This document shows positions 6,060 to 51,892 of a stretch of 64,000 nucleotides of DNA, piece after piece. Made by a program: the position numbers and the translations under genes. Source of the DNA: Candidatus Poribacteria bacterium. Lineage in GTDB: Bacteria; Poribacteria; WGA-4E; WGA-3G. The notes beneath the pieces were generated by a model, which made no database searches, was not told the origin of the DNA, and saw nothing but the letters and a program-made list of their open reading frames with translations. Numbering within the stretch: position 1 is the first letter of the stretch; each line of letters starts with the position of its first letter. Where the stretch lies: positions 2,307,864-2,371,863 of the forward strand of contig OY282386.1 of assembly GCA_958295945.1 (NCBI GenBank). The letters are read 5' to 3'.

Positions 6060-6159
6060 CGGATGCATAGCAGTTTGTGATACAAAAAGACTTATACTGA
6101 ATTGTGTCTATTTGTACCACAATCTACCAGATTGTGCTACTATAATAGAAAAACCTAAA

Positions 6160-6846: not shown

Positions 6847-7046
6847 CACAAACGGTTTGTACCACAATCTGCCAGATTGTGTAGTTCTATAACACAAACG
6901 GTTTGTACCACAATCTGTCAGATTGTGTAGTTCTATAACACAAACTGCCAGTTTGTGGTACATAAGGCAGTGTTCTATAACACAAACTGCCAGTTTGTGG
7001 TACATAAGGCAGTGTTCTATAACACAAACTGGCAGTTTGTGCTACA
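6813..7046 (+). repeat. Downstream REP cluster (46-bp and 42-bp tandem units)
   Basis: Three units at 6813, 6859 and 6905 (period 46) carry the CACAATCTGCCAGATTGTG hairpin, the third with one base changed in the loop region. Units of period 42 (TTCTAT at 6931, 6973 and 7015) then carry the CACAAACTGCCAGTTTGTG hairpin; the last one at about 7023-7041 is in the opposite orientation. Together with the 84-bp array upstream they bracket the RAYT gene. Confidence 0.9.
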
Positions 7047-7052
7047 AACTAC

Positions 7053-7099
7053 AGAAAAGGTAGACTATGAATTCAGATTTACAAGTTAAGAAAAACATT
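7053..7099 (+). repeat. Downstream copy of the 47-bp direct repeat (used methylase start)
   Basis: This copy matches 5617-5663 and contains the functional methylase start: AAAGG, a seven-base gap and the ATG at 7067. It has no stop codon in the methylase frame, unlike the upstream copy. It is the boundary of the inserted REP/RAYT segment (about 5664-7052). Confidence 0.85.
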
Positions 7100-8220: not shown

Positions 8221-8228
8221 GGTAGTGT

Positions 8229-8693
8229 TTACATTTTTTTAGCAGTGATAAGTATAGATGCAAAATAGACGAATCCGAGGTATCTGACTGCGTATTTGTC
8301 GTAGCGTGTGGCAACTCGGCGATACTGTTTCAACCGATGAAAAAAACGTTCTACGACATTGCGAAGTTTATAGATGACTTTATCATAAGGACGATCTTCA
8401 ACACGGTTCTTGCGAGGACGGATAACAGCCTCGGCATCCTGTGCTGTGATCTCTAATCGAAACGCATCGGAGTCGTAGGCAGCATCAGCAATAACATATT
8501 CACACGAGTAGTCAGCAATCAACGCCGAAGCTTGTGTGATATCATGACATTGCCCCGCTGTTAAGGTGAAACGTAAGGGGGTAAACTCCGCACTCACAGC
8601 GACATTAAGTTTTGTGGTAAAACCACCCACACTACGACCGAGAGCCTCCATCTCTTGACCGCCGTTTTTTTTTTCGGTGCACCTGCGGCACAA
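8229..8693 (-). CDS. IS5/IS427-type transposase, downstream frame
   Basis: This frame supplies the C-terminal half: GRSVGGFTTKLNV, the second catalytic Asp in VIADAAYDSDAF and the catalytic Glu in RNVVERFFHRLKQYRR, the conserved DDE context of IS5 transposases. It overlaps the upstream frame at the A10 run and has no convincing start of its own, so it is made by frameshifting. Confidence 0.88.
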   Translation of the reverse strand: MCRRCTEKKNGGQEMEALGRSVGGFTTKLNVAVSAEFTPLRFTLTAGQCHDITQASALIADYSCEYVIADAAYDSDAFRLEITAQDAEAVIRPRKNRVEDRPYDKVIYKLRNVVERFFHRLKQYRRVATRYDKYAVRYLGFVYFASILITAKKM

Positions 8694-9028
8694 GAATGTG
8701 CACGCACGATAGAGGAATCAACGAGGAGTACTGATATTTCACCCGCTTCATGGAAATGTTCATGAAGTTTTTCAAAGACCTTGGCATCACACCATCTGCC
8801 GAAACGCCGATAGATGGTATTCCAATACCCATAGACTTCAGGTATGGCACGCCAGGTAGCTCCCTCTTTAGTTATCCAAAGGAGAGCAGAGAGGAAGCGT
8901 CTGCAGTCTTCTGGATCACCAATATAGACGTTTGGACACGCTTGCAGAAACGGTAAAATACTTTCCCATGCCACATCACTGATAGAATGGGGAAGTTCTT
9001 TGGATTTATCTGTTTTTTTAGTTTTCAT
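8594..9028 (-). CDS. IS5/IS427-type transposase, upstream frame
   Basis: The ATG at 9028 gives MKTKKTDKSKELPHSISDVAW, then the IS5-type helix-turn-helix/DUF4096-like segment (WRAIPEVYGYWNTIYRRFGRW) and the first catalytic Asp in LLVDSSIVRAH. The frame passes through AAAAAAAAAA (plus-strand T10 at 8664-8673) and soon ends. Full-length transposase requires a -1 shift at that run into the other frame, the usual device in this subgroup. Confidence 0.88.
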   Translation of the reverse strand: MKTKKTDKSKELPHSISDVAWESILPFLQACPNVYIGDPEDCRRFLSALLWITKEGATWRAIPEVYGYWNTIYRRFGRWCDAKVFEKLHEHFHEAGEISVLLVDSSIVRAHSCAAGAPKKKTAVKRWRLSVVVWVVLPQNLMSL

Positions 9029-9090
9029 AAACAATAGAATACAAAAATATATGTTAAATGTCAATACTTTTTAAATGTAAACACAACCTA

Positions 9091-36042: not shown

Positions 36043-36104
36043 ACATGAGATAGCATCCTAATTGTAATATAAGTTTTTTCATAGATTAGGAGGCTATCTC
36101 ATGT
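36043..36104 (+). promoter_or_regulatory. 20-bp hairpin that would hide the transposase ribosome binding site and start codon
   Basis: ACATGAGATAGCATCCTAAT (36043-36062) is complementary, with one mismatch, to ATTAGGAGGCTATCTCATGT (36085-36104). The right arm contains AGGAGG (36088-36093) and the ATG at 36101. RNA reading in from outside would fold and block translation, whereas RNA starting inside the left arm would not. Confidence 0.8.
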
Positions 36105-37258
36105 GTCAATATCTTATCAAATCTACGATGTCCTTTCAAACACTTCTCTACTCTCATTTTGGGAAAAAGTCTTTGCAATTGCGAGAAACGCTACTTTTAC
36201 TTTCAATGGGTCATATGTTTGCACTTTTTAATCCGAATCAGGTAGCACAATCGTTATCTATTCCGGTAGCGAACCTTTATAGGCATCTAAAAGGCTTCTC
36301 GCTCTATCGATGGAAGTGTCTATTTGTTCGCGTCGGGTGTTCGATCGCACTCCAAGAGGGACGAGATACCGAATCCAAAAGTGATGCTACAAAATCTCGT
36401 CGTCGCCCTACAATAAGTGTGGATGGGACAAATGACCCGCGCTATGGTAAACTCCTGTCCTACTGCTTCAGTTGGTGGTCAAAAAAACACAATACCTCTA
36501 TCCGAGGCAGAAATGTGTTAGCTATCACGATCAAGATTGGCTCTATGATTATCCCTCTCAATATTCGCATTGTTAGCAAACAAGGCAGAGGGAACACAGA
36601 TAAACCTTCCTATTTTATTGCGATGCTCAAAGAGATATTAGATTTCTTTGACACATCGGGTGTGGATTTGAGAAAATATCCGATCACTTTTGATTCGTGG
36701 TATGGCAGTCAACAACTACTCCAAATCCTGTCTGATATGGGATTTGATACCAAACTCGTGCACGGGAAAAGCAACTATGTGATGGATATTGAGAACGAGA
36801 ACGTTAAACTCTCACAACACAAAAAACGGATAGAACTACATCCAGCAAGATGGGGATGCGATAAACCACACTATCGCACCCACGCAACTAGTAAGACATT
36901 TGTATCACTTGTGCTCCTCTTCTTTTTAGATATGGGCAAGACCCGAACAATGATGGTTTTTGGAAAATCCGGACGATCTTGTGAAATACTCAAGATTTGG
37001 TCTCAACACCATGGTATAGAACAATTTTGGAGATACCTAAAAACAGATTTGAAACTTTCAAAAATGAGTTTAGCGGGTAGACAAGGTGCGTATGCGAGCT
37101 TGGGTGTCAAAGTGATGAGCTCTCTCTTAGGACAGCATTTGAGCCGTTTGACACATAAAACATTCTATCAGGGACAACTTGAACTTTCTGGACAAAGACA
37201 CATCCTGTTTACTCTTATAGAGCATTTTCATGAACAAATACCAACGAAACGCCTATAG
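36101..37258 (+). CDS. IS4-like DDE transposase
   Basis: A 385-aa protein with AGGAGG before its ATG. Candidate catalytic residues are Asp in ISVDGTNDPRYG, Asp in ITFDSWYGSQQL and Glu in HHGIEQFWRYLKTDLKL, the last in the Y-(2)-R-(3)-E-(6)-K-like context of IS4/IS701 transposases. The N-terminus resembles a DNA-binding region (SIPVANLYRHLKGFSLYRW). The frame is intact, so the element may be active. Translation is probably controlled by the hairpin over the start. Confidence 0.83.
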   Translation: MCQYLIKSTMSFQTLLYSHFGKKSLQLRETLLLLSMGHMFALFNPNQVAQSLSIPVANLYRHLKGFSLYRWKCLFVRVGCSIALQEGRDTESKSDATKSRRRPTISVDGTNDPRYGKLLSYCFSWWSKKHNTSIRGRNVLAITIKIGSMIIPLNIRIVSKQGRGNTDKPSYFIAMLKEILDFFDTSGVDLRKYPITFDSWYGSQQLLQILSDMGFDTKLVHGKSNYVMDIENENVKLSQHKKRIELHPARWGCDKPHYRTHATSKTFVSLVLLFFLDMGKTRTMMVFGKSGRSCEILKIWSQHHGIEQFWRYLKTDLKLSKMSLAGRQGAYASLGVKVMSSLLGQHLSRLTHKTFYQGQLELSGQRHILFTLIEHFHEQIPTKRL

Positions 37259-37536: not shown

Positions 37537-39345
37537 TTATACTTCTGGAACATTCCACAACTTCACCGTGCTATCCCATCCAGCAGTTGCAAGTGTTCGT
37601 CCATCTGGAGAATAGGACAGAAACCATATTTCTTGAATATTTTCATGGGTAAATGCTTCTATTACTACACCGGTGTGAGCATCACAAAAACAGATCTGAT
37701 CTCCTTCAAAAATTGCATACGCGAAAGTCTCTCCATTTGGAGAAAAGGCTATTTCACTTGCCATTTTATCAATTTCAAAAGACTTTATAGGTTTTTCACC
37801 ATCTATTTTCCAATATTGAATTTCACCTTGCCTTAAACATAGAAGAGTATGTGAATCTGGTGAAGATGCGACAAAGCGTCCAGATATTTTTTTGACGGTT
37901 TCTTCAGTAGTTAAATCCCAAAATCTTATCTCTCCACCAGCCGCACCGACAAGTAATTGTCCGTCAGGCAAAAATACAAGGTTTCTTATATCCTGCGATT
38001 TGGATTCAAGTTTCTTCGTGTTTTTGCCAGAAGTAACATCCCACAGATAAACGTTACCATGTTCATCGCCGCCTGCAAGCGTCTTTCCATCAACAGAAAA
38101 CGCAACGGATGTAATGTCATTCAGATCTCCTTCAAAAACTTGTTCCTTTTCCCCTGTTTCAGTATTCAAAATATAAACCCAGTTGTTTCTATCATCGCCA
38201 CAAGCCAATCTTATTCCATCTGGTGCAAAAGCACAACAAGTAACTATATGTGGATGTATATAGATATTTTTCATAAGTTTAAATGTCTTTGTATCCCACA
38301 AATGGAGTCTGGCGAAACCACACAGTACAGCGAGAACATCTTCAACCGGTGAATATGTCATACACCTAAATATCTCTGCGTATCCATCAATTGCACGTAG
38401 TTGTGAACCCTTTGCAACATCCCAAAATCGAATTGGGCCGTCGTCACTGTCTGTAGTAGCTAATGTTTTTCCATCAGGGGAAAAAACGACATGGTATGTG
38501 GAATCTTGTGGACTTTGGATGGATTTTAATCGTTCTGCTTTAGTAACATCCCAGAACTGAATCACATCGTCACGCAAGTTGTTACTGACAAGTATATTCT
38601 CTGTTGGACTAAACAAAACTGTATTCACCCAATCGTCATTTGTGGTAGCAGCTATTGTATTAAGTAAGTTGCCTGTATCGGTATCCCAAATCCTGATTTT
38701 TCCACCACGTTCTCCAATTGCGAACATTTTACTATCCGCAGAAAAGGAAATGGCAGAAATATAATCTTGATTACCTTTAAGTGTACGGATATATTCGCCT
38801 ATGTGTGCGTTCCAAAGATGGACCATATTATCACCGCCATAACTTGCAAGTAACTCACCATGTGGTGAAAACATCACTTCAGATACATAGCCAGCATGTC
38901 CGGCAATAGTAAGAACCTGCTGACCTGTCGGAATATCCCAAAAACGAATTAATTCGTCATTTCCACCACTGATAAGTTTCTGTCCATCATGACTAAAAGT
39001 TACAGATGCGACTCCATCAGTATGTTCTGAGAGTATCATCTTAAGGTTTCCCGATTGGATATCCCATAATCTGATTGTTTTGTCGCTGCTCCCACTTGCC
39101 AAAAGTGAATTATCCGGACTAAAAGCAACACTGTGTACCCCAGCCGTGTGTCCCAAGAACAGATTGAGTTCCTTGCAAGTATGTGTATCATAAAGCCATA
39201 TACCGTAAGTGCCACACGTAGCAAACAGTGAACCATCTTTGGAATATACCATATCAAAAGTACAACCTTTTCCGAGACGTGCTTTTGCACCATCAGGCAA
39301 TTTCCAACCTGTAACATCTTGTGATTGTAAAGATTCTGCTGTCAT
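37537..39345 (-). CDS. WD40 propeller protein (stand-alone, sigma domain lost)
   Basis: A 602-aa protein made of WD40 repeats (for example GHTAGVHSVAFSPDNSLLAS and TLATAGWDSTVKLWNV at the end). It begins with the family signature WKLPDGAKARLGKG. It is a close duplicate of the propeller half of the sigma-WD40 fusion at 41904-44300. AGGAGAAGTT precedes the ATG exactly as at the fusion's internal junction. Upstream, about 20 codons still resemble the end of the sigma factor (RLR...FEVETERGEV) and then the resemblance stops, so the sigma part was deleted. WD40 rings bind proteins; no enzyme function is implied. Confidence 0.9.
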   Translation of the reverse strand: MTAESLQSQDVTGWKLPDGAKARLGKGCTFDMVYSKDGSLFATCGTYGIWLYDTHTCKELNLFLGHTAGVHSVAFSPDNSLLASGSSDKTIRLWDIQSGNLKMILSEHTDGVASVTFSHDGQKLISGGNDELIRFWDIPTGQQVLTIAGHAGYVSEVMFSPHGELLASYGGDNMVHLWNAHIGEYIRTLKGNQDYISAISFSADSKMFAIGERGGKIRIWDTDTGNLLNTIAATTNDDWVNTVLFSPTENILVSNNLRDDVIQFWDVTKAERLKSIQSPQDSTYHVVFSPDGKTLATTDSDDGPIRFWDVAKGSQLRAIDGYAEIFRCMTYSPVEDVLAVLCGFARLHLWDTKTFKLMKNIYIHPHIVTCCAFAPDGIRLACGDDRNNWVYILNTETGEKEQVFEGDLNDITSVAFSVDGKTLAGGDEHGNVYLWDVTSGKNTKKLESKSQDIRNLVFLPDGQLLVGAAGGEIRFWDLTTEETVKKISGRFVASSPDSHTLLCLRQGEIQYWKIDGEKPIKSFEIDKMASEIAFSPNGETFAYAIFEGDQICFCDAHTGVVIEAFTHENIQEIWFLSYSPDGRTLATAGWDSTVKLWNVPEV

Positions 39346-39867
39346 AACTTCTCCTCTTTCTGTTTCTACTTCAAATCCGGTAGGTTCCCTCGTTGTTCGT
39401 AGTCGCTCAATTCATTGCGCATCTTGCATTAATGGAGAGGTCTCAATCCTCAAGTGCATAGTAGTAGGCACACTCCGTGTGCCGTTCCTTCTCTTGTTGG
39501 AGGGTTTCCAATTTTGTTAGATAAGAGCGGTGCCGCAAGGACGCGCCAGACGTTCCTTCTCTTGTTGGAGGGGTTCCAACCCCAATAGATACCATAAGCG
39601 TCATCAGTGTTGATTTGGATTGATTGTTTTGCCAACATCGGTGCAGCTAATCATATCAATAGCACGCTGAAACTTCAGACTCATAATCCTGAAAATCTCA
39701 TAATCCTGAAAATCCTGGTTCAGACAAAAATGAATTACACAAACTTGACATCAATTGTGCGGTTAGGAAACCGCACATAGACATCAATTTAGTGGTTTAT
39801 AGTTTGCAGGCTTTCTTTAGTCCCGTAGGTACTGAGGACACGCTTAGAATCGCATTTATTAATATGC
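39346..39867. other. Intergenic region with sigma-factor remnant and short repeats
   Basis: Positions 39346 to about 39405, read on the minus strand, retain a degenerate sigma-factor end. Beyond it are two copies of CGTTCCTTCTCTTGTTGGAG (39483 and 39551) and a 17-bp tandem pair CTCATAATCCTGAAAAT (39680-39713). These match the style of dispersed small elements in this genome. No gene is supported. Confidence 0.6.
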
Positions 39868-41706
39868 CTAAAGCTTACTTACATCCCATAAAAGAACTGT
39901 CCCATCAGAACTCACACTTGCAACTGTTTCCCCATCCGTAGAAAACGCAACATCATTGATGCTTTGTGTATGTCCAGTAAACGTCTGTAGAAGTTCTCCA
40001 GTGTGTGCATCCCAAATGTGTACAACTTTTTCATTCTCAGAAATATTCGCAAGCAACCTGCCATCAGGAGAACATGCCAGATGCGTTACAACTCCTGCAT
40101 CTGATATCGATGGACATGTCAACTCACCTGTGGCAACATCCCAAAAACGGATTGTTCCATCCGCACTACCACTTACAACCGTGTTCCCATCAGAAGAAAA
40201 CACCACGTTATTAACTTCCTTTTCGTGTCCCGTTAACGTTGTAAGGAGAGTCTGACTGTCAACATCCCATATCATGATTGTTTTGTCATTGCTACCACTT
40301 GCAAGCTTTCTTCCATCAGGAGAAAACGCAACTGAATTGACTTCATCTGTATGTTCATTGAAAGTCATCAAGCAATCTCCAATCAGATAAAGTTGCCCCT
40401 TACAAATCTCCCATATACATACTTTGTTATCTCTGGTACCCGTCGCGAGCATACATCCATCAGGTGAAATTGCTATAGAAGAAAAAGAAAACTTTGCGTC
40501 ATCTCCTCTGAAACTTCCGAGAAACCGACCAGTTGCTACATCCCACAAACGTGCTTTGTTAGAAGAATCTCTTGTCACAAGCATGTTTCCATCTCTTGAA
40601 AATTTGATTGAATGGACATCCGATTGCCGAACAAAGGTAGTATTTATCTGTTTGCTATTTTGTAAATCCCACCACTGGACTTCGTTTTCTCCACCACAAG
40701 TCAACGTTTTCCCGTCAGGAGAAAATGTTACAGAATAGAGTTCCATTGGTCTGTGATCGAGTATGGTAATTCTTAATTCACCTGTGTTTGCATCCCACAT
40801 GCGGACCGTGCCATCATCACTCCCACTGGCAATTGTCTCTCCATCAGGTGAATAAGACACCGAAAGCACCTCGTCTCCATGTGCCATACTATTCAATAGT
40901 TCTGCTGTATCAACATCCCAAACATCGACTCTGTCCCAACGGCTGCCTGTCACAAGTCTGCTTCCATCCGGTGAAAACTCCATTGACTGAAACTCACCTA
41001 CCCACTCTGTATTATTACTGAGTCGTTTACCAGTTTCTAACTCCCAAAACTGCAAAGGACCATCTTCTGTAGCAAGAATTTTCTGATCAGGTGAAATGGC
41101 AGCAGCATTAAAGTTAGTTTCAAGGGACATCTCTTTGACAATTTCATAGTCCTGTGTATCCCAATATGCAATTTGTGACTCCTTATTAGCGGTATTGCCT
41201 ACGGTAAGAAGATGTATACTATCAGAAGTATATGTCATAATTGCATCTGATGCAAAATCTGTTAAACAAGATTTTAAAAGCTCACAGGTACCAACATCCC
41301 ATACCATGATTTCACCATCTGTACTTGCAAGTTTATCTCCTCTCACATTGAATGTTAAATACTCAACATCATTTTTATGTCCAACACAAGTACCTTTTAG
41401 CCGACACGTCTTTGCATCCCAAATATGGATTGCTTTGTTTTCACCACTCGTAGCGAAGAATTTTCCATCTGCGCTGAAGGCAATAGTCGTAGCAGGTGTA
41501 GTATCCTCTGTCAGTAAGTCAAGAGCTTCTCCTGTTTCTGCATCATAGACCCAGACACCGATGGATGAAGCGACAGCCAATCGTTTTCCATCAGGAAAAA
41601 ATGTGACTTGATTTATTTTTCCTTTCCCAAGACGGGTTATTGCCCCATCTGGTAATCCAACCTGAGCATTTTTATGTGTGAAAGTAGCACCTTCGTTTAT
41701 TTCCAT
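39868..41706 (-). CDS. WD40 propeller protein (stand-alone)
   Basis: A 612-aa protein with about 13 WD40 repeats, probably two seven-bladed rings (VNSVAFSPDGRKLASGSNDK, VASVSSDGTVLLWDVSKL). Signature near the N-terminus: GLPDGAITRLGKGKINQVTF. AAGGAGATTCTAATAG lies before the ATG. It is more divergent from the neighbouring propellers than they are from each other in pairs. No sigma remnant is seen upstream; a MITE occupies the 197-base gap to the next gene. It probably binds a protein partner, perhaps one shared with its neighbours. Confidence 0.9.
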   Translation of the reverse strand: MEINEGATFTHKNAQVGLPDGAITRLGKGKINQVTFFPDGKRLAVASSIGVWVYDAETGEALDLLTEDTTPATTIAFSADGKFFATSGENKAIHIWDAKTCRLKGTCVGHKNDVEYLTFNVRGDKLASTDGEIMVWDVGTCELLKSCLTDFASDAIMTYTSDSIHLLTVGNTANKESQIAYWDTQDYEIVKEMSLETNFNAAAISPDQKILATEDGPLQFWELETGKRLSNNTEWVGEFQSMEFSPDGSRLVTGSRWDRVDVWDVDTAELLNSMAHGDEVLSVSYSPDGETIASGSDDGTVRMWDANTGELRITILDHRPMELYSVTFSPDGKTLTCGGENEVQWWDLQNSKQINTTFVRQSDVHSIKFSRDGNMLVTRDSSNKARLWDVATGRFLGSFRGDDAKFSFSSIAISPDGCMLATGTRDNKVCIWEICKGQLYLIGDCLMTFNEHTDEVNSVAFSPDGRKLASGSNDKTIMIWDVDSQTLLTTLTGHEKEVNNVVFSSDGNTVVSGSADGTIRFWDVATGELTCPSISDAGVVTHLACSPDGRLLANISENEKVVHIWDAHTGELLQTFTGHTQSINDVAFSTDGETVASVSSDGTVLLWDVSKL

Positions 41707-41755
41707 CTATTAGAATCTCCTTTTTGTAGTTTGAATATTAGTCGTGTGTTGGTGT

Positions 41756-41865
41756 CTTTAGTCCCGTAGGAACGATATGTTAATTGTACTGTGTCGTTCC
41801 TACGGAACTCAAAGTTGTTGGGGACAAATATATCCTATAGACATATCGTTCCTACGAGACTAAAG
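41756..41865. mobile_element. 110-bp MITE with CTTTAGTC terminal repeats
   Basis: CTTTAGTCCCGTAGGAACGA begins at 41756 and its near-complement ends at 41865. Internal CGTTCCTACGG repeats the arm. It has no coding capacity. It lies between two WD40 genes and a half-copy (CTTTAGTCCCGTAGG) occurs near 39815. Confidence 0.78.
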
Positions 41866-41903
41866 AGTGTTTTCAGACCAAAATTGCTTATACCTAACTC
41901 ACG

Positions 41904-44300
41904 TTATATTACATCATATTCTACTTCTGGAACATTCCACAACTTCACCGTACTATCCCATCCAGCAGTCGCAAGTGTGCGTCCATCTGGAGAATAGGAC
42001 AGAAACCATATTCCTTCAATATGTCCATGCGTATAAGAAGCAATTACTTTACCAGTATTTGCATCACAAAAACAGATCTGATCCTTTTCCCAATGTGTAT
42101 AAGTGAATGTTTCTCCATTAGGAGAATAGGCTACATTACTCGCTTTCTTATCAATTGTGTTTATCGGTTCATCACCATCAACATTCCAAAATTGAAGTTC
42201 AAAGTTTTTAATACATAGAAAAGTTTGGAAATCTGGAGAAGGTGCAACCGTGTGTCCCTGAGCCTTTTTGATGGTTTCTCCGGTAGTTAAATCCCAAAAT
42301 CGAATTTCTCCATCAGTTGAACTGATAAGTACTTGATCGTCCTGCCAAAATACAAGGTCTTTTATTTCGTCTGATTCGGATTCAAGTATCTTCGTGTTTT
42401 TGCCAGAAGTAACATCCCAGAGATAAATGTTCCCATGTTCATCGCCGCCTGCAAGCGTCTTTCCATCAACGGAAAACGCAACAGATGTTATATAATTCAG
42501 ATGTCCTACAAGAGTCTGTTCAATCTCATTTTTTTCAGGATTTAGAATATTTATAACGTTCTTTCTATCATCTTCATACGCTAATCTTATCCCATCTGGT
42601 GCAAAAGCTATACACCCAACTCTCTGTTTATATAGATGAATTGTATTCAAGTGCTCACACGTTTGTGTATCCCACAAACGGAGTCTACGGGCACCATCCA
42701 ATACTGCAAGCGTGTTGGAAACAGGTGAATGCGTCATTCGCACAAACATCTCTGCGTATCCATCAAGTGTCCTTGTAGGTGAACCTGATGCAACATCCCA
42801 AAATCTGATAGTCCCGTCCCTGTGTGTATTTAGCAAAGTGTTTCCATCTCGAGAAAATATGACAAAGTAAGTTGTATCTGGTGGACTTTGTATAGTTTTT
42901 ATTCGTTCTCCTTTAGTAAAATCCCAAAACTGAATCACATCATCATTATAGTTGTTGCTAACGAGTGTTTTCCCATCTGGACTGAAAACAACTGTATTTA
43001 CTCCATCGGCATCCGTAGTAGCAGTGATTGTATTGAGTATGTTTCCAGTATCAGTATCCCAAAATCTGATCTTACCATCCTGATTTCCACTTGCAAGCAT
43101 TTTACTATCAGGTGAAAAAGAAATTGATGAAACTGAACCTGTATGTCCTTTAAGTGTGTGCAGGAATTCTCCTGTCCGTGCGTTCCATAAGTGTATCATT
43201 TTATCCGTACCATAACTTGCAAGTAACTCTCCGTTTGGTGAACACATCACTTCGGATAAATTACCAGCATGTCCAGCAATAGTCAAAATCTGTTTACCTG
43301 ATGCAACGTCCCAAAAACGAATTAATTCGTCATTTCCACCGCTAATAAGTATCTGCCCGTCTTGACTAAAAGTTACTGATCTGACAGCATCAGTATGTCC
43401 TGAGAGTGTCAACTGATGTTCGCCTGTTTGGACATCCCATATTATTATTGAGTTATCATTACTTCCACTTGCCAGGAGCGAATTATCTGGACTAATAGCA
43501 ACGCTACTCACACCATCCGTATGACCTAAAAACAGATTGAGTTCTTTCCCAGTATGTGCATCATAAAGCCAAACACCGATAGTGCTACCCACTGCAAATA
43601 GCGAACCATCTTTAGAATATGTAATATCAAAAGGATAACCTTTTCCGAGACGCGCTTTTGCACCATCAGGTAATTTCCAACTTGTAACATCTTGTGATTG
43701 TAAAGATTCTGCTGTCATAACTTCTCCTCTTTCTGTTTCTACGCCAAACTCCTGTCGTAGCAGTGTGCGAATATCTCTTAATCTACTCTTAACTGTACCG
43801 GCAGGCATCTTGAATTTTTCAGCAATTTCTCTGATATTCCATAATTCCAAATAGTATAATTCCGCAACAGAACGCACTTTCTTTGGCAGTTGATGTATCG
43901 CTTCTTTAACATCGGTGATTAGTTGCGTATTGTAATATCGGTCTGTAGCGTCTTGATCAATATGTTCCACCAATACGGACTCCTGATGAGGTATTTCGTC
44001 ATATCTATGCTGTGTAGTTTTATAATACCGTTTACATGCGTTGAGTGCGATGCGATGTAGCCACGGTCCAAAACTATCAACCTTTTTCAATCCAGTTATG
44101 TTTTGCCACACAGACATCCAAATGTCGTTACTAATCTCTTCGGCATCTTGCAGATGTCTTGAATTAGCGACTATGACACGCCATATCCGAGGTTTATAAC
44201 GGGACATGAGTTCTGCAAAAGCTGCTTCATCCCTGTCTTGAACGAGTTGAATCAGTTCTGCATCTGCAAGGTCGCTGAACACCAGAAACTCATTGGTCAT
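41904..44300 (-). CDS. ECF sigma factor-WD40 fusion protein
   Basis: A 798-aa protein. Residues 1-194 are an ECF sigma70-family factor: region 2 with RYKPRIWRVIVANSRHLQDA and WLHRIALNACKRYY, region 4 with LPKKVRSVAELYYLELWNIR and IREIAEKFKMPAGTVKSRLR. From residue 195 a WD40 double ring follows, opening with WKLPDGAKARLGKG and ending TLATAGWDSTVKLWNV. Met195 is preceded by a good internal ribosome binding site, so a free 604-aa propeller may also be made. The sigma half is nearly identical to that of 44346-47033, and the propeller half to 37537-39345. It should recruit RNA polymerase under control of the propeller. No membrane anti-sigma gene is nearby. Confidence 0.92.
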   Translation of the reverse strand: MTNEFLVFSDLADAELIQLVQDRDEAAFAELMSRYKPRIWRVIVANSRHLQDAEEISNDIWMSVWQNITGLKKVDSFGPWLHRIALNACKRYYKTTQHRYDEIPHQESVLVEHIDQDATDRYYNTQLITDVKEAIHQLPKKVRSVAELYYLELWNIREIAEKFKMPAGTVKSRLRDIRTLLRQEFGVETERGEVMTAESLQSQDVTSWKLPDGAKARLGKGYPFDITYSKDGSLFAVGSTIGVWLYDAHTGKELNLFLGHTDGVSSVAISPDNSLLASGSNDNSIIIWDVQTGEHQLTLSGHTDAVRSVTFSQDGQILISGGNDELIRFWDVASGKQILTIAGHAGNLSEVMCSPNGELLASYGTDKMIHLWNARTGEFLHTLKGHTGSVSSISFSPDSKMLASGNQDGKIRFWDTDTGNILNTITATTDADGVNTVVFSPDGKTLVSNNYNDDVIQFWDFTKGERIKTIQSPPDTTYFVIFSRDGNTLLNTHRDGTIRFWDVASGSPTRTLDGYAEMFVRMTHSPVSNTLAVLDGARRLRLWDTQTCEHLNTIHLYKQRVGCIAFAPDGIRLAYEDDRKNVINILNPEKNEIEQTLVGHLNYITSVAFSVDGKTLAGGDEHGNIYLWDVTSGKNTKILESESDEIKDLVFWQDDQVLISSTDGEIRFWDLTTGETIKKAQGHTVAPSPDFQTFLCIKNFELQFWNVDGDEPINTIDKKASNVAYSPNGETFTYTHWEKDQICFCDANTGKVIASYTHGHIEGIWFLSYSPDGRTLATAGWDSTVKLWNVPEVEYDVI
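43716..43730 (-). promoter_or_regulatory. Internal ribosome binding site and ATG at a sigma/WD40 junction
   Basis: AGAGGAGAAGTT precedes ATG (43718-43716) with a five-base gap from AGGAG. It lies in frame exactly where the sigma factor ends and the propeller begins (residue 195). The stand-alone copy at 39345 starts with the same sequence. Confidence 0.7.
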
Positions 44301-44345
44301 AAACAGATATCCAATTGGACAAATAATGTAATTTGAGAAGGATGA

Positions 44346-47033
44346 CTATAGATACGGTTTACAATCCCATACAAGAATTGTACCGTTCCTACAACCTGTA
44401 GCAAGCATTGCACCATCTGGTGAGAAAGCCATTGATTGCACGAACGAATTATGTCCATTAAATGCATGAATTTGTTCACCTGAGGGGACATCCCATATCT
44501 GTATAGCCAGATTCTCCCAGCCCTTATTCCACCAAGTTGCTCCTGCGAGATACTTACTGCACGCTGAAAATACTAACGGACATGTCCTTCGGTAGACTTC
44601 ATTTTGAGGAATTGTGCGAACAGTTGTAAAATCATTAGCACTCCACAAACGGATTTCTTGGTTTAATTCACCGGCAATCAGATTACCGCATGGAGAAAAG
44701 ACAATATCTAATGGATCGCTTGGTGTTTCCATAGCTAATTCTGCAATCTCCTTACCCAAATCAACATCCCATACTCTTGCAGTGTTATCCTTTGATCCAC
44801 TCGCTATTCGTTTCCCATCAGGTGAAAATGCTAATGACAATATTTCATCAGTATGACCAGTAAAATGCATCGGACTCTCAGGATTTTCAAAATGCCACAC
44901 ATACACTGCGCCATTTTTGCCTCCAACCGCGAGTTGATCTCCATACGGTGCAAAAACCTTAGGATGATGCCATTCTGTCGGTACAGATGTTGTTGTTATC
45001 TTTACCTTAAGTTCTTCTGGCTTATTGACATCCCATATCTTCGTCTCATCATCATAATCCATTGCAAGTATCTCTCCAGAAGGTAAAACAGTGAAATGAT
45101 GTATCCATTCTTTTTCTAATAATGGATCCTTCCTACATTTATCTTTAGTATCCCATAACATAATTCCGTTATTGATAATTGTGCTTGCCAGTGTGTTATC
45201 ATCAACCCACATCACTTTTGGTGAAGGCCATGGGAATTCTGGCTCACGTACTATAGAGAAAGATGGAATTCCATCCTCTGTATGTTTAATGCATGAAGAA
45301 TCGGTCAATTGCTTTTTATAAGCAATTGCTATAGATTTTGCAAAACCATATCGTCCAATACCCACTGATATCTCAAGCAACTTATCTCTATCTTCAACAT
45401 CCCATACTTCAATTGTGTTGGTGGAACTAAGATAAACTAATGCCAACAATCTGCCATCTTCTGTGTAAAACGGGTCGTCATAATTTGGAAATTCCATTTT
45501 CTGTGTTCCTGATGCGAGAACCCATACCCGTAATGTTCCATCACTGGATGCAACGAATTGTCCACACGGTGAAAATGCAACAGCATCTACCCAATCCTCA
45601 TGTCCTGAAAAATGTGCTATTTGTTCTCCGGATGTTATATCCCACACTGACACACATCGGTCAACGCGTTTGTCATCTTTCAAAGTTTCGTCGGCAGCTG
45701 CTCCAGCTATCAGACGACTATCTGAAGAAAAAACAAATTCCCTACCCGCAAATTTGATAATTTGTTTACCCGTTTTGGGATCCCAGACATAAATTTGCGT
45801 TCCCTCTGTATCAGGATTCAGGCAGACATCATCGTCATTATACACTTTTGAATTTCCAGCAGTCGCTGCGAGTAAGTTGCCATCGGGTGAAAACTCAAGT
45901 TGCCATATATCATTTGATCTCCATTCATAATTTCCGCGATCCATCTGTGCGATATGTGTCCCATTTTGAATATTTAAAACTGTAACAATACCGTCCATTT
46001 CAGCAGCAGCAACCCATTTACCATTAGATGAACAAGCAAGTTCACCGTAGGCATCTTGCTCCTCAAATTGCATAACGCACTCTCCACTCTCAACATCATA
46101 TACCTTGAGGATGTCATCTACAGTATCTGCCACAATCCATTTGCCATCATGAGAAAACGCAGTAGAACCGATACTGTGTTGTGGTTCCCATAAAGAAATC
46201 GGTAACATTGTAGACGTATCATACCACCACAATCCCATACCTGAACCAACGGCAAAACACGTTCCATCGGGTGAAAGTTTGATATCCTGTATGTCACCTT
46301 TTCCAAATCGGACAATAACATCCTTTTGTAGTGCCCAAGTATTTCCTGATGGATCATCTACGATTGCGTTTAACACTTTTGGTCTTATGTTATTTGTCGC
46401 TCTGTCATTTAACTTAATTGATTGATGTGTATGATCGGTATTTTTTACCATTTTTCCTCCTCTTGATGGGTCTACGCCAAATTCCTTTCGCAAGAGTTCA
46501 CGAGTTTCCCTTAATTTCGTTTTCACTGTGCCTTCGGTCAGTGTGAACTCAGCTGCAATGTCCTTAACACTCCACGACTCTAAGTAATACAATTCTGCCA
46601 CTGAACGCACCTTTTGTGGAAGGTGATGAACAGCTTCTTTTGCATCAGCAATTAACTGCATGTTTCTAAACCGTGCAGTAGCTGCTTGATCTATATGTTC
46701 AATTATCTCAGAATGTAGATGTGGGATTTCACTTCGTGATTGTCTTGCCAAGGTGTAATAACGTTTACATGCGTTGAGTGCGATGCGGTGTAGCCACGGT
46801 CCAAAACTATCAACATTTCTCAATCCAGTGATGTTTTGCCAAACGGATATCCAGATGTCAGCATGTATTTCTTCGGCATCTTGCAGATGTCTTGAATTAG
46901 CGACTATGACACGCCATATCCGAGGTTTATAACGGGACATGAGTTCTGCAAAGGCTGCTTCATTTCTATTCTGTACAAGCTGAATGAGTTCTGCATCTGT
47001 TAGGTCACTCAAAGCAAGAAAATTGTTGTACAT
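44346..47033 (-). CDS. ECF sigma factor-WD40 fusion protein
   Basis: An 895-aa protein. Residues 1-194 are an ECF sigma factor closely related to its downstream neighbour (same AFAELMSRYKPRIWRVIVAN block; region 4 LPQKVRSVAELYYLESWSVK). A junction Met195 with its own ribosome binding site begins a 701-aa propeller part with the signature WALQKDVIVRFGKG and C-terminal LATGCRNGTILVWDCK. WD40 blades are less regular in the middle (about 480-640). The gene lies 45 bases upstream of the next fusion gene and 96 bases downstream of a stand-alone propeller gene, so it is likely part of one long transcript. Confidence 0.92.
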   Translation of the reverse strand: MYNNFLALSDLTDAELIQLVQNRNEAAFAELMSRYKPRIWRVIVANSRHLQDAEEIHADIWISVWQNITGLRNVDSFGPWLHRIALNACKRYYTLARQSRSEIPHLHSEIIEHIDQAATARFRNMQLIADAKEAVHHLPQKVRSVAELYYLESWSVKDIAAEFTLTEGTVKTKLRETRELLRKEFGVDPSRGGKMVKNTDHTHQSIKLNDRATNNIRPKVLNAIVDDPSGNTWALQKDVIVRFGKGDIQDIKLSPDGTCFAVGSGMGLWWYDTSTMLPISLWEPQHSIGSTAFSHDGKWIVADTVDDILKVYDVESGECVMQFEEQDAYGELACSSNGKWVAAAEMDGIVTVLNIQNGTHIAQMDRGNYEWRSNDIWQLEFSPDGNLLAATAGNSKVYNDDDVCLNPDTEGTQIYVWDPKTGKQIIKFAGREFVFSSDSRLIAGAAADETLKDDKRVDRCVSVWDITSGEQIAHFSGHEDWVDAVAFSPCGQFVASSDGTLRVWVLASGTQKMEFPNYDDPFYTEDGRLLALVYLSSTNTIEVWDVEDRDKLLEISVGIGRYGFAKSIAIAYKKQLTDSSCIKHTEDGIPSFSIVREPEFPWPSPKVMWVDDNTLASTIINNGIMLWDTKDKCRKDPLLEKEWIHHFTVLPSGEILAMDYDDETKIWDVNKPEELKVKITTTSVPTEWHHPKVFAPYGDQLAVGGKNGAVYVWHFENPESPMHFTGHTDEILSLAFSPDGKRIASGSKDNTARVWDVDLGKEIAELAMETPSDPLDIVFSPCGNLIAGELNQEIRLWSANDFTTVRTIPQNEVYRRTCPLVFSACSKYLAGATWWNKGWENLAIQIWDVPSGEQIHAFNGHNSFVQSMAFSPDGAMLATGCRNGTILVWDCKPYL
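46449..46464 (-). promoter_or_regulatory. Internal ribosome binding site and ATG at a sigma/WD40 junction
   Basis: AAGAGGAGGAAAA precedes ATG (46451-46449), a full AGGAGG with a four-base gap. It falls at residue 195 of the fusion, the same position as in the neighbouring fusion gene. Confidence 0.72.
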
Positions 47034-47129
47034 AAAAACAGATTCCTGAGCCAGTTTTAATGTATAGAGGAGGGTTTTATAGTAAAAGGTTTAAAAAAAT
47101 AGAAGTCGGACTTTGTGATTTTATGACAA

Positions 47130-49172
47130 TCACAGATATGGTGTTAGGTCCCAAAGCAGGATAGTGCCATCATAACTTGAACTGGCTAAGAGTTTGTTGT
47201 CGGGAGAGAAGGCGAGTGCGTGTACATCTGTTGTATGTCCACTAAATGTAACAATTTGTTTGCCGGTTTCAACATTCCATAAACAGATGACCATTTTCTC
47301 CATGCCTTCTCGCCACCATGTCCCAGCAGCAAAATATTTCCCACACATGGAAAAGTTAGCAGCCCAAAACATATCTTCTAACCCTTGCGGTAGGGACAAC
47401 CGAGCAAGGTAGGCATCCTCTTGCACATCATACAAATATGTGTCATCACCAATGGAAGATAAATACTTTCCATCATGAGAAATGTGCGTGACCTCACGAG
47501 ATCTTGGTTTCAAATGTCTCAAGACGAGTCTTCCAAGGATTCGTGTAATAACATTATCATTCAGAGAATTATCAATATCTTCACCAAGTTCCATGTCCCA
47601 CGAAATGACATGCGCGTGAGGATAATTTGATTCACTTGCAAGTATTTTTCCGTCAAAACTGAATTGTAAATCACAAATTGTTTCATCGTCCTCGTTATCA
47701 TTTGACGCCACTGTGTGTTTCAGTTCATAGAGTTGATTTCTACTTTGTACATCCCACACCTTGAGGTTACCATCTTTATCAGCATAGGCAAATAACTTGC
47801 CTGTTGGTGATAATGCAGGAAATGCACTCCAATACTCACGACCTGTCCCTTCAATAAGAGGGATACCATTCCCATCAGCTTCCCAGAGTGTAACATTATC
47901 ATTTTTGATGCTGGCAACATAGAGTTGTCCATCATTGGTTTTATATAGAAACTGATTTTTACCTGCTGATTCCGCTTTAACTGCAGGACGTGAGCGTTTA
48001 CTCTCAATATCCCATAACATAACACCTTCATGATGATGTTTTACTGCTAACATTTTACCATCATCCGAAAACAATGCAGTAGGAAACGAAACAGACGTAC
48101 GTTCATAAGCCGGAAACGAAATAGGCGAATGTATAAACTGTCGCTTATATGGGTGTTCAGGTGTCCATACGTTGATAAAATCATGTCTGCTTTCGTAAGC
48201 AAGTTGCGAACCGTTTGAAAACGCGATGGTATTGCCCCAATCATCTTCATCGGAAAATTGGACAGTATTGCCCCAAACTTGATCATTATAAAGTTCCTCC
48301 TCACTCTCAAGGTCGCGGACTGAGATTGTGGCAGGACCGGTATCGTCATAATGGACAATCACTGCACGTAGTATTCCATCTGGTGTCCAAGCCGGAATTA
48401 TACGATACACTTTACCATAGTCGGAATATGATTGCACTCTTTGCCATGTATTCACATCCCATACTTGGACGGTGCCATCTTCACCACCAGAAGCGAGGAA
48501 CTTCCCACAAGGTGAAAAGCAGAGCGTTGAGATGCAATCGGTGTGTACTGATAGGCATGCGATTTGTTTGCCGCTTTCCATATCCCACACGATTATTGAC
48601 TCTGCATCGTCAGTGGTAGTGGTGCCGCATGTAAACACTACCAGGCGAGTATCAGGTGAGAAACTAATTGGACTATCATAACTTTCTTCTTCAGTGTCTG
48701 CAGTGAATTGTGCAACCGGTTTAGCGGTTTCAGCATGCCATACTTCAGCAGTAGGAGCATTTGCATAAACGACTGCAAGATATTGACTATCATTTGAAAA
48801 AGTCAAATTTGTAATATATTCATCTAATTTTACTTGTGATAAGCATGCGCCATTTTGGATATCCAATACCTTTAGAATCTCATCTGAATTGCAGACAGCA
48901 ATCCACTTTCCATTGGGTGAAAAGGCAATGTGAAATATCATTCCGCGTTCTGTCTCCCATAGCGCGATAGGAGATAAGGTCTCCAAGTCATACACCCAAA
49001 GACCTATTGTGTTTCCTACTGCAAGATATTGTCCATCTGGTGAAAAAGCAAAGTCAGGATTACACCCGCGCCCCAATCGTGTAATCGAACCTTCCGGCAG
49101 GGCCCAGGTTGTTACATCAACATTATCAATGTGTTCTGGTGTGGATACTGTAGATTTGTCTTTTTTCAACAT
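47130..49172 (-). CDS. WD40 propeller protein (stand-alone)
   Basis: The ATG at 49172 follows AAGGAGGAATT; a longer frame from 49211 overlaps the previous gene and is rejected. It encodes 680 aa: signature WALPEGSITRLGRG, blades such as ISTLCFSPCGKFLASGGEDG, ending LASSSYDGTILLWDLTPYL. It starts 14 bases after the stop of the sigma-WD40 gene 49187-51796 and is a close paralogue of that gene's propeller (shared QFLYKTNDG, YVASI, PLIEGTGREYWS). The last 75 bases or so are nearly identical in both. It is probably cotranscribed and may compete with the fused propeller for the same ligand. Confidence 0.91.
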   Translation of the reverse strand: MLKKDKSTVSTPEHIDNVDVTTWALPEGSITRLGRGCNPDFAFSPDGQYLAVGNTIGLWVYDLETLSPIALWETERGMIFHIAFSPNGKWIAVCNSDEILKVLDIQNGACLSQVKLDEYITNLTFSNDSQYLAVVYANAPTAEVWHAETAKPVAQFTADTEEESYDSPISFSPDTRLVVFTCGTTTTDDAESIIVWDMESGKQIACLSVHTDCISTLCFSPCGKFLASGGEDGTVQVWDVNTWQRVQSYSDYGKVYRIIPAWTPDGILRAVIVHYDDTGPATISVRDLESEEELYNDQVWGNTVQFSDEDDWGNTIAFSNGSQLAYESRHDFINVWTPEHPYKRQFIHSPISFPAYERTSVSFPTALFSDDGKMLAVKHHHEGVMLWDIESKRSRPAVKAESAGKNQFLYKTNDGQLYVASIKNDNVTLWEADGNGIPLIEGTGREYWSAFPALSPTGKLFAYADKDGNLKVWDVQSRNQLYELKHTVASNDNEDDETICDLQFSFDGKILASESNYPHAHVISWDMELGEDIDNSLNDNVITRILGRLVLRHLKPRSREVTHISHDGKYLSSIGDDTYLYDVQEDAYLARLSLPQGLEDMFWAANFSMCGKYFAAGTWWREGMEKMVICLWNVETGKQIVTFSGHTTDVHALAFSPDNKLLASSSYDGTILLWDLTPYL

Positions 49173-49186
49173 AATTCCTCCTTGTT

Positions 49187-51796
49187 CTAAAGATAAGGTG
49201 TTAGATCCCAAAGCAGGATAGTGCCATCATAACTTGAACTGGCTAAGAGTTTGTTATCGGGAGAGAAGGCGATTTCTTCCAAAATATCTGTCGGTCCCCT
49301 AAAGGTGACAAGATGTTTTCCACTCGTAACATCCCATAGGTCGATAGGATAACTCTTCAAATCCTTATGCGATGTTTCTATTGCCATGTACTGACCACAC
49401 ACAGAATATGCTCCTAGACCCTCAAATTGTTCAAATTCTGGTGGATAGGACAACTTTTTTACTATTTCTGTCCATGTAGGGTTACACAAGCAGGTTACAT
49501 CTTCGCAGTATTCCTGTTGGGTGATATCCCAATATTGCTTTCCTTCTTTTCCTAAGTAAGCATGGTACAGTCCACATCTGCAAAATCGGACACCCTTGAT
49601 TTCATCACCTGGCAACGTTTCTATCTCTTCACCAAGTTCCATGTCCCACAGTTTAACATTCCGAGATTTTGATGTACTTACGAGCAATTTTCCATCCTGA
49701 CTGAATTCCAAGTCATGAACATGATCATCTTCATCCTCATCATCGTCATTAGGTGGTTCAAGAGGATGAGTGAATTCATGAAGTTTCTCTCCATTTTGTA
49801 CATCCAACACTTGTACGGTGCCATCCTCGCCAGCATAAGCGAATAACGTACCTGTTGGTGCTAATGCCGGAGGTGCGCTCCAATATTCACGTCCAGTTCC
49901 TTCAATAAGAGGGATACCATTCCCATCAGCTTCCCATAGTGTTACGGTCTCATTTATGATACTTGCGACATAGAGTCGTCCATCATTGGTTTTATATAGA
50001 AACTGATTTTTTCCCGCAGATACCTCTTTGATTGCAGGACGCGAACGTTTACTTTCAATGTCCCATAACACGACACCTTCTTGAAAGTGTTCAGCAGCTA
50101 ATGTTTTACCATCCTGGGAGAATACAATCGATCTCGGCCACGAGATAGGTGAATGTGTAAATTGACGTTTGTTTGGATTGTCAAGAGTCCACACGTTGAT
50201 ATATTCATGTCGGCATTCATAGGCAAGTTGTGATCCGTTAGAAAACAGGACATTGTTCCCCCAATCACCAATGGATGCAAATTCTATATTATTGCCCCAA
50301 ACTTGATCACTATAAAGTTGCTCATTGCTTTCAAGGTCCCGGACAGAGATAGTAGCTGGACCGGTCTCCTCATAATTCATGATCACTGCGAGTAAAATTC
50401 CATCTGGTGTATACGAGGGGACAACAATACTATATGGGTGTCCATAATCGGTATATTCTCGTATCTGTTGCCAAGTATTAACATCCCAGACGAACACTGT
50501 GCCATCTTTACTACCAGATGTGAGAAACTTTCCACAAGGTGAAAAGCAGAGAGTCGTTACCCAATATTTATGTGCTGATAGGCACGCAATTAGTTCACGG
50601 CTTTTCATATCCCACACTAATATTGATCCTGCCTCATCTGAGTTAGCGGACATACACGTTGACACAATCAGTCGAGTACCAGGTGAGAAACTAATAGGTT
50701 GGTAATGTCCTGCTCTTTCATCGTCTGCCGTGAATTTTGCATACAACTTGCCGGTTTCTGCATGATGGACAACAACAACAGGAGTACCACCATAGTCAGA
50801 AGAATTAACTGCAATATACTTATTGTCATGGGAAAAAGTTGTACTTTCTACGAAAGTCTCAAATTTAACTTGTGTCAAACAAGTGCCATTCTGAACATCC
50901 AAAATCTTAAGTATTCGTCCTGAAAAACTGGCGACTATCCATTTACCGTTAGGTGAAAAGGCGACATCGTAAGCCACCCCTTGCTCTGCCTCCCAAAGTG
51001 AGATAGGAGAAAGCGTTGCGAGGTCATATATCCATAGTCCTATGCAGGTGCCAATAGCAAGGGACTGTCCATCAGGTGAGAACGTCATTTTAGGTTCACT
51101 TCCGCGCCCTAAACGCGCAATCGCACTTTCGGGAAGTGCCCAAGTTGTTACATCACCTTGAAATAAACCTACCGGCACGGGAGTTGAGGTGTCTTGGTTT
51201 TCCATAAAATTATCTCCTTGTCCTTGATATATGTCATCTTGGAATATAGGTTCTTCTTGTACTAAGCGATTTCTTGCTCGGCTGAGCCGACTTTTTACTG
51301 TGTTCAGAGGGACACCTAAAGCCTCACTAATCGCTTTACAGGACATTTCTCCGAGATAGTGGAGGATCATCGTTGTGCGTTCTGTCCCCGGCAACATTTC
51401 CAGAAGGTTATAAACGATTTCGCTACGACGTTCTGCGGATGCTATTTCACGTTGTTCTGCTACATAAGAGGCATAAGCAGATTTTTCCAGTATTTCCTCA
51501 CTTGTTGAATCCAGGGATTGCATCACAATCCTTTTCTTACGAAGCCGTGCTAAACACTGCCGATGTGCAATCGTATAGAGCCATCCAGAAAACCGATTCG
51601 GATCTTGTAGGGTTGGTAGCTTTTTGTATACTTGAAGGAAGGTATCCTGAGTTATTTCCTCAGCAATATGATAATCACCGATTTTACGCCATGCAAACGA
51701 ATGTACACTCTTACGATATTTGTTAACCAACTCGCTAAATGCCCCTTCATCACCTGACAATATGTCATAAATCAATTGAACGTCATCTTTTACCAT
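49187..51796 (-). CDS. ECF sigma factor-WD40 fusion protein (second sigma type)
   Basis: An 869-aa protein, first gene of the array. Residues 1-197 are an ECF sigma factor of a different subtype from the other two: LIYDILSGDEGAFSELVNKY, DYHIAEEITQDTFLQVYKKL, WLYTIAHRQCLARLRKKR, and region 4 LPGTERTTMILHYLGEMSCK then ALGVPLNTVKSRLSRARNRL. At residue 198 a Met with its own ribosome binding site begins a 672-aa propeller with the signature WALPESAIARLGRG and the end LASSSYDGTILLWDLTPYL. TAGGAG precedes the gene start. A possible ECF-type promoter lies just upstream, suggesting self-control. Confidence 0.92.
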   Translation of the reverse strand: MVKDDVQLIYDILSGDEGAFSELVNKYRKSVHSFAWRKIGDYHIAEEITQDTFLQVYKKLPTLQDPNRFSGWLYTIAHRQCLARLRKKRIVMQSLDSTSEEILEKSAYASYVAEQREIASAERRSEIVYNLLEMLPGTERTTMILHYLGEMSCKAISEALGVPLNTVKSRLSRARNRLVQEEPIFQDDIYQGQGDNFMENQDTSTPVPVGLFQGDVTTWALPESAIARLGRGSEPKMTFSPDGQSLAIGTCIGLWIYDLATLSPISLWEAEQGVAYDVAFSPNGKWIVASFSGRILKILDVQNGTCLTQVKFETFVESTTFSHDNKYIAVNSSDYGGTPVVVVHHAETGKLYAKFTADDERAGHYQPISFSPGTRLIVSTCMSANSDEAGSILVWDMKSRELIACLSAHKYWVTTLCFSPCGKFLTSGSKDGTVFVWDVNTWQQIREYTDYGHPYSIVVPSYTPDGILLAVIMNYEETGPATISVRDLESNEQLYSDQVWGNNIEFASIGDWGNNVLFSNGSQLAYECRHEYINVWTLDNPNKRQFTHSPISWPRSIVFSQDGKTLAAEHFQEGVVLWDIESKRSRPAIKEVSAGKNQFLYKTNDGRLYVASIINETVTLWEADGNGIPLIEGTGREYWSAPPALAPTGTLFAYAGEDGTVQVLDVQNGEKLHEFTHPLEPPNDDDEDEDDHVHDLEFSQDGKLLVSTSKSRNVKLWDMELGEEIETLPGDEIKGVRFCRCGLYHAYLGKEGKQYWDITQQEYCEDVTCLCNPTWTEIVKKLSYPPEFEQFEGLGAYSVCGQYMAIETSHKDLKSYPIDLWDVTSGKHLVTFRGPTDILEEIAFSPDNKLLASSSYDGTILLWDLTPYL
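51203..51219 (-). promoter_or_regulatory. Internal ribosome binding site and ATG at a sigma/WD40 junction
   Basis: AAGGAGATAATTTT precedes ATG (51205-51203), an eight-base gap from AAGGAG. It lies in frame at residue 198, where this unrelated sigma type meets its propeller. Confidence 0.68.
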
Positions 51797-51832: not shown

Positions 51833-51860
51833 ATGACGCGATTATTTCTTGGAAAGGTTG
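51833..51860 (-). promoter_or_regulatory. Candidate ECF-type promoter of the array
   Basis: On the minus strand TGCAACCT (core CAACCT, 51860-51855), a 16-base gap and CGTCAT (51838-51833) match the AAC/CGTC pattern of ECF promoters. They lie about 37 bases before the first gene. No equivalent is seen before the other sigma fusions. Confidence 0.4.
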
Positions 51861-51892
51861 CAGAGTTGACAGGTATTCGAAAATTATTATAC

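Follow-up and report, generated by a model that had tools for sequence, protein, structure and literature searches.

Why would a sigma factor share one reading frame with a WD40 propeller, in the midst of genes that encode such propellers on their own? A stretch of 64,000 nt from Candidatus Poribacteria, analysed as a whole and referred to here as the window, raises this question: it holds six neighbouring WD40 genes, three of which begin with an ECF sigma factor. The genome it comes from (the home genome) is a single contig of 5.34 Mb. All coordinates are positions within the window unless they are assigned to the home genome. Poribacteria proteomes have been described as rich in WD40 proteins, in a text on this same phylum that mentions neither sigma nor ECF (PMC3909097). 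ECF sigmas with C-terminal WD40 repeats are published from Planctomycetes, as a first-pass annotation of the window had noted, and regulation by protein interaction is proposed for the ECF57/planctomycete group (PMC8999054, PMC8567305, PMC11032199). What the fused sigma does at the present locus, and whether the fusion protein is the only product of its gene, was examined by sequence comparison and structure prediction.

Organisation of the WD40 gene array

Six minus-strand WD40 open reading frames fill positions 37537 to 51796 and follow each other in the transcription order g6, g5, g4, g3, g2, g1 (Table 1). All six lie where the first-pass annotation had placed them, and each matches Pfam WD40, with E values from 5e-37 to 8e-90. 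The N-terminal signature attributed to the whole set is exact in only half of it (g1, g3 and g5); the W is missing from g2, the g4 sequence is W-A-LQ...RFGKG, and in g6 an S replaces the G. The TTG start given for g5 (ORF 47130-49211) is wrong, the real start being the ATG at 49172. With this correction, g6 and g5 are 14 bases apart, g5 and g4 96 bases, and g4 and g3 45 bases. The longer gaps g3/g2 (197 bases) and g2/g1 (522 bases) both contain a repeated element. Between the free propeller genes (39815-39833 and 41756-41865) the repeat, CGTTCCTACGGGACTAAAG, is present four times, against 0.01 expected, and in either orientation. A DDE transposase-like gene (36101-37258) adjoins the array end downstream of g1 and is a possible agent of rearrangement.

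Table 1. Genes and predicted elements of the array (window coordinates; SD duplex energies in kcal/mol).
Feature	Position	Strand	Description
g6	49187..51796	(-)	ECF sigma (type B)-WD40 fusion gene, 869 aa
g5	47130..49172	(-)	free WD40 propeller, 680 aa from corrected start
g4	44346..47033	(-)	ECF sigma (type A)-WD40 fusion gene, 895 aa
g3	41904..44300	(-)	ECF sigma (type A)-WD40 fusion gene, 798 aa
g2	39868..41706	(-)	free WD40 propeller, 612 aa; SD AAGGAGA
g1	37537..39345	(-)	free WD40 propeller, 602 aa; 5' end nearly identical to g3 propeller
Sigma half of g6	51206..51796	(-)	197 aa; Pfam Sigma70_r2/r4_2; SigW 5wuq E 1e-23
Sigma half of g4	46452..47033	(-)	194 codons
Sigma half of g3	43719..44300	(-)	194 codons
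Predicted g6 ECF promoter	51835..51862	(-)	TGCAACC-N15-CGCGTC; type-B element
Predicted g4 autoregulatory promoter	47063..47096	(-)	TTTTAAACC-N18-CTCTATA; full-pattern match
Weaker g3 promoter core	44335..44360	(-)	AAACC-N18-CTC; overlaps 3' end of g4
Intragenic SD of g6	51213..51219	(-)	AAGGAGA-7-ATG; duplex -8.5
Internal ATG of g6 (Met198)	51203..51205	(-)	predicted free-propeller start
Intragenic SD of g4	46455..46461	(-)	AGGAGGA-3-ATG; duplex -12.0
Internal ATG of g4 (Met195)	46449..46451	(-)	predicted free-propeller start
Intragenic SD of g3	43723..43728	(-)	AGGAGA-4-ATG; duplex -9.1
Internal ATG of g3 (Met195)	43716..43718	(-)	predicted free-propeller start
SD of g5	49176-49183	(-)	AAGGAGGA; precedes ATG 49172
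Sigma C-terminus remnant, g1 ribosome-binding region	39346..39375	(-)	28/30 nt identical to g3 junction

Two types of ECF sigma half

The N-terminal parts of g3, g4 and g6 are complete ECF sigma factors, as had been claimed, with regions 2 and 4 both present. They score 66.7 to 92.2 bits against TIGR02937 (NCBIfam; cut-off 42.9), and those of g3 and g6 align with the solved SigW, RpoE and SigH over ~170 residues that include both regions. In having sigma regions 2 and 4 only, within about 160-200 residues, all three halves agree with ECF factors in size and domain content. Two types are represented: type A in g3 and g4 (71% identity between the two) and type B, another ECF family, in g6. In most homologues the type-A half spans 194 codons, whichever cargo comes after. 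The sigma halves are under purifying selection (dN/dS 0.04-0.28), and their alignment conserves the region-2 motif DAEE..DIW..VW and the region-4 helix-turn-helix GTVK. The core- and DNA-binding elements, whose loss the first-pass annotation had named as fatal to its proposal, thus appear intact.

The g3/g4 family has one conserved cysteine (Cys89, 19/19), and g6 has Cys81 and Cys153. In ECF57 two cysteines are conserved, through which sigma2 and sigma4 could be linked, in contrast to the single one of g3 and g4; ECF57 membership is not claimed, since the second cysteine is absent from type A. Almost every genome searched in the GTDB family of the host has the type-A sigma family, which gave no strong match beyond that GTDB family; every named relative is a Candidatus Poribacteria MAG. 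The sigma-only relatives G022:C6 and G023:C59 were considered as an ancestral two-gene state and rejected: with 44-47% identity to g3, both stop short of the junction, and unrelated genes or too little sequence follow.

A candidate translation start at the junction

Where the sigma half meets the propeller, g3, g4 and g6 each contain an ATG in frame, preceded by a strong SD sequence (Table 1), a feature missed when the array was described as plain fusions and free propellers. Translation from these codons would yield proteins beginning with MTAESLQSQDVTSWK... (Met195) or MENQDTSTPVPV... (Met198). Taking the best-scoring start within a 14-codon window as the candidate, we found a start codon at the junction in 73/73 type-A fusions from relatives (71 ATG, 2 GTG), with an SD duplex of -6 kcal/mol or below in 72 of them (98.6%) versus 4.7% of the 933 remaining in-frame ATGs of these ORFs; being related by descent, these homologues do not give independent counts. 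The median SD duplex was -8.9 kcal/mol at the junction, -4.2 at the outer sigma start and -1.6 at other in-frame ATGs. In an overlapping set of named loci, 83 of 84 ORFs have a junction start, and the exception, L207 (7080-7755), listed as a sigma without such a start, is an ordinary ECF of another family.

Synonymous recoding of the same amino acids gave a mean SD of -6.1 versus -9.3 observed. The RG-rich linker residues alone thus supply part of the signal, and the argument accordingly rests on codon choice and persistence. Arginine near the junction is encoded by AGR (AGA/AGG) in 57/57 cases as against 1033/3061 elsewhere (34%), and glycine by GGR in 75/80 as against 1807/3733 (48%). The SD core occupies all three codon phases (36/19/18), the residues that spell it vary (RGE, RGG, KEN, RRN, QGD), and both SD and start codon are kept across sigma halves only 46-79% identical to g3. 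The junction is also the least structured 60-nt window tested (mean MFE -5.4 vs -10.1 kcal/mol, p 1e-23). Together these observations point to selection on the nucleotide sequence of the junction as a translation initiation region. The fusion, the internal start signals and their conservation are read directly from the sequence; from it we infer that both products exist, each fusion gene probably making a sigma-propeller protein and a free propeller.

One alternative is a plain one-protein ECF sigma whose C-terminal WD40 part acts as sensor or inhibitor in cis, in the manner of ECF57, the internal start being a disused leftover of the fusion. For ECF57, sigmas with WD40 tails are on record together with a proposal that they work through protein interaction (PMC8999054), and ECF-TM-WD40 genes stand in the same arrays without a junction start, so cis sensing alone can suffice. 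However, a leftover would decay, and here SD and start persist over the whole range of sigma identity given above and across a change of cargo; the synonymous codon bias and the low RNA structure at the junction also speak against disuse. We therefore regard this account as unlikely.

The array-type membrane-anchored ECF-TM-WD40 genes, used as a negative control, have an ATG or GTG with a strong SD near the junction in 0/10 cases. The home genome contains many ECF sigmas that continue into a transmembrane segment and a long C-terminal part (e.g. L006, L008, L013, L017, L022, L026). Several ECF-TM genes carry an SD-like AAGGAGGAA before a Met or Val where sigma region 4 ends, and eight of those in the home genome have SD-like KEE(x) before M/V.

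Sigma-less genes that begin at the junction

Two kinds of free propeller gene serve as natural experiments. The first, g1, starts at a methionine equivalent to Met195 of g3 and is preceded by a remnant of the sigma C-terminus (Table 1), upstream of which the likeness of its leader to g3 ends. This pattern marks g1 as a former fusion gene that has lost its sigma and kept the junction start region; if expressed, g1 would depend on the former internal start. The second kind comprises free type-B-like genes in relatives, which start with MENQ, MENH, MENK or MDN in alignment with the internal Met of g6 and whose leaders, e.g. ACAAGGAGATAATTT, match intragenic sequence of g6. The broader idea that free propellers are generally fusion remnants was rejected; a sigma remnant is found in g1 only, and 54 other free array genes have none.

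Propeller structure and arrays in relatives

An AlphaFold model of g3 (24-sequence alignment, pLDDT 82, pTM 0.69) consists of an ECF fold, a disordered linker (188-202) that holds Met195, and a C-terminal WD40 part predicted to be mostly WD-type beta strands and matching solved double propellers. PF00400 in 6/6 genes, together with the match of the g3 model to double propellers, identifies the array products as probable WD40 beta-propellers, a fold in which the repeats close into seven-bladed rings.

Co-oriented arrays that mix sigma fusions and free WD40 genes were present in 8/8 relatives mapped, with 4 to about 17 genes each. Chance is thereby excluded, and the array is a family trait of variable size and composition. 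The co-occurrence of fused and free propellers, which the first-pass annotation had suggested surveying, is thus general among the mapped relatives; as for the conserved order on which it had staked its proposal, mixed arrays recur throughout, but the genes do not keep to one exact order. In relatives, many free propellers start with a hydrophobic, signal-peptide-like stretch, and the window's free propellers do not. A defence role of the array was considered and set aside, PADLOC giving only a generic WD-repeat match (HEAT-ARM_XIII).

Other cargo on the same sigma half

Besides WD40, type-A sigma halves are followed in frame by an FtsZ-like protein, FtsZ-like plus DnaE, DnaE alone, or DnaN (L326). 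The FtsZ-like cargo measures about 200 or 390 aa, with an invariant GGGTG motif. ECF sigma, FtsZ-like GTPase and DNA polymerase III alpha (PHP, polymerase, finger and HHH) occupy one frame of about 1340-1440 aa at L098:1895-6217 (G004:C121), L099, L104, L109, L111, L112, L114, L115, L125 and L127, and frames of the same length with a DnaE match are also found in the single-contig genomes G082 and G083. One non-WD40 type-A gene is present in the home genome, an ECF-FtsZ fusion at 2181528 (L142:3502-5292), which ends in a remnant of the DnaE PHP domain and has promoter and junction start as in g4; normal ftsZ, dnaN and dnaE are located elsewhere in the same genome. In the predicted structure of one ECF-FtsZ member of the family, the linker is disordered as in g3 (188-205).

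In a separate ECF family the cargo is a DnaN-like sliding clamp; the home genome has this fusion at 2524435 (2524006-2524986 (-), L143), where the junction TNGGIG-M with GGAGG places an SD start at the join; similar ECF-DnaN genes occur in at least six relatives. The junction-start architecture is also present in type-B and ECF-DnaN fusions. In a tree of sigma halves, WD40 bearers and FtsZ/DnaE bearers lie on opposite sides of one branch (support 99/97), so junction start and promoter are shared across the change of cargo. Since the cassette also bears FtsZ, DnaE and DnaN paralogues, a "WD40 sensor" is only one case of it. The home genome further contains two other tandem dnaN-like genes (5169142 and 5170358) and a free 224-aa FtsZ-like gene (2462843-2463319 (+), L147) directly upstream of an ECF-repeat-like fusion (L020); further ECF genes lie beside this FtsZ-like gene.

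The range of cargo bears on a second alternative, in which the propeller is a soluble anti-sigma, as the first-pass annotation had proposed, and acts in trans: free product from the internal starts and from g1, g2 and g5 would inhibit the sigma halves until a ligand releases them. No anti-sigma domain was found among the window ORFs scanned, in agreement with the earlier remark that an anti-sigma gene is absent, and the SD strengths predict more free product than fusion; both points favour such a role. An anti-sigma must match the sigma surface, however, and here FtsZ-like, DnaE and DnaN proteins replace WD40 next to the same sigma and promoter. The disordered linker predicted between sigma and propeller in g3 also argues against it, and we consider inhibition in trans improbable.

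Predicted promoters of the fusion genes

The element TTTTTTAAACC-N18-CTCTWTA is located upstream of 66/70 type-A genes of all cargo types, usually 33-35 bases before the ATG, with a spacer of 18 in every case in an open 13-19 scan. Type-A genes thus have conserved -35 and -10 elements at fixed spacing before the sigma gene (AAACC-N18-CTC, 66/70), as is characteristic of ECF factors. The full pattern has exactly two copies in the home genome, before g4 and before ECF-FtsZ, and this confinement to two sigma fusions implies autoregulation. Across 58 genomes of the family the pattern is frequent, as against a single match of the reversed control, and in seven genomes of 1-3 contigs 15/16 copies precede type-A sigma-fusion genes. 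The type-B counterpart, TGCAACC-N15-CGCGTC, has three copies in the home genome, all upstream of ECF genes, and a similar element lies upstream of most type-B genes among those listed in relatives. As the sigma is the sole part common to all these genes, we infer that each sigma drives its own gene's promoter, type-A sigma using the type-A promoter.

In another genus of the family, the type-A promoter also stands before MacB/FtsX-like ABC permeases and secreted WD40 genes, so the regulon is not always self-only. Genes behind it at L310-L324 encode a MacB/FtsX-like ABC permease, another ABC permease and WD40 proteins that have the same ALPPGAVARFGRG motif and probably a signal peptide.

A third alternative would limit the sigma to guaranteeing expression: promoter, sigma and internal ribosome site would form a self-sustaining module, and the tether would have no regulatory role. 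This agrees with a motif found almost only before the cassette's own genes and with cargo that is interchangeable at depth, but leaves unexplained why the frame is fused without a stop codon in practically every member; we hold it to be quite improbable. That separate sigma and WD40 genes were joined by assembly or sequencing errors can be dismissed, for although the sources are MAGs and in one relative (G004:C1:30465) the frame breaks downstream of the junction, the identical in-frame architecture recurs in dozens of genomes and the fusion is in frame in the single-chromosome assemblies OX639973.1, OX638316.1, OX639992.1 and OY282374.1.

Discussion

The explanation that we favour, with a probability of roughly 0.6, is that the fusions are nested dual-output genes, autoregulated and supplying a sigma-tagged minor subunit. 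One promoter and one mRNA per fusion gene would give two products, a sigma-propeller protein from the weak outer start and a free double propeller from the strong junction start. The fused ECF sigma (type A in g3 and g4, type B in g6) would recognise the promoter of its own gene, placing the array under autoregulation, and g1, g2 and g5 would contribute further free propeller. The sigma-tagged form would then be a minority subunit, doped into the more abundant untagged form of the same propeller. As long as the propellers are bound to a partner or assembly, the tethered sigma would be kept away from RNA polymerase; with propellers unoccupied, the tagged form would activate its own operon and more propeller would be made, a product-feedback switch. 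This last step, in which a doped sigma-tagged subunit senses occupancy or assembly, is drawn from the architecture of the genes, and we put it forward tentatively. We prefer it because it also fits FtsZ-like and clamp cargo, unlike a fixed anti-sigma surface.

It is likewise conceivable, though we would not wager on it, that a portable self-control cassette of autopromoter, ECF sigma and intragenic ribosome-binding site fronts WD40, FtsZ, DnaE and DnaN paralogues in frame, its minor sigma-tagged form reporting the assembly state of the cargo (polymerised, bound or attacked) as transcription of its own gene. Such a one-gene sensor-actuator would not have been described before.

Among known systems, the ECF57/planctomycete ECF-WD40 proteins resemble the fusions in having a sigma half and then a WD40-type C-terminal extension; however, no internal start, free isoform, change of cargo or autopromoter was found in the accessible text of the papers that describe them (PMC8999054, PMC8567305, PMC11032199). 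ECF42 (TPR tail) and ECF41 (SnoaL-like tail) likewise have a regulatory C-terminal extension in place of a separate anti-sigma factor, but the extension is different and, in the accessible text, they are not reported as dual-product genes (PMC8999054). The nearest parallel for the predicted translation is found in phage endolysins, where an internal start in one frame gives the full-length protein and a shorter C-terminal polypeptide that can co-assemble, at 1:5 in one case (PMC9430671). The candidate junction starts resemble these in being internal and in frame with an SD of their own, but endolysins are phage cell-wall enzymes rather than transcription factors, and the parallel is an analogy only (PMC9430671). 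A search of the open-access literature found no paper on a sigma fused to FtsZ or DNA polymerase III, and the nested start, interchangeable cargo and autopromoter appear to be undescribed in the searchable literature.

If the dual-output explanation is correct, a class of apparent fusion proteins would be dual-product genes, and ECF factors annotated with "C-terminal extensions" would need re-reading for hidden starts. The fusions would represent a minimal one-gene feedback architecture: a minority of a protein's copies would bear its own sigma. They would also connect transcription with proteins of division and replication (paralogues of FtsZ, DnaE and DnaN) in a phylum of sponge symbionts that is uncultured. 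The predicted promoter and internal starts are testable in E. coli without culture of the host.

Other features of the window

Two further regions of the window lie apart from the array. Positions 1771-11701 encode an SNF2/Helicase_C protein with a PLD-like domain and an Eco57I-type restriction-modification methylase, a probable defence-related cluster. A 1283-aa protein encoded at 12410-16261 combines two-component regulator propeller repeats with a SpoIIE phosphatase domain and is a possible partner-switching regulator.
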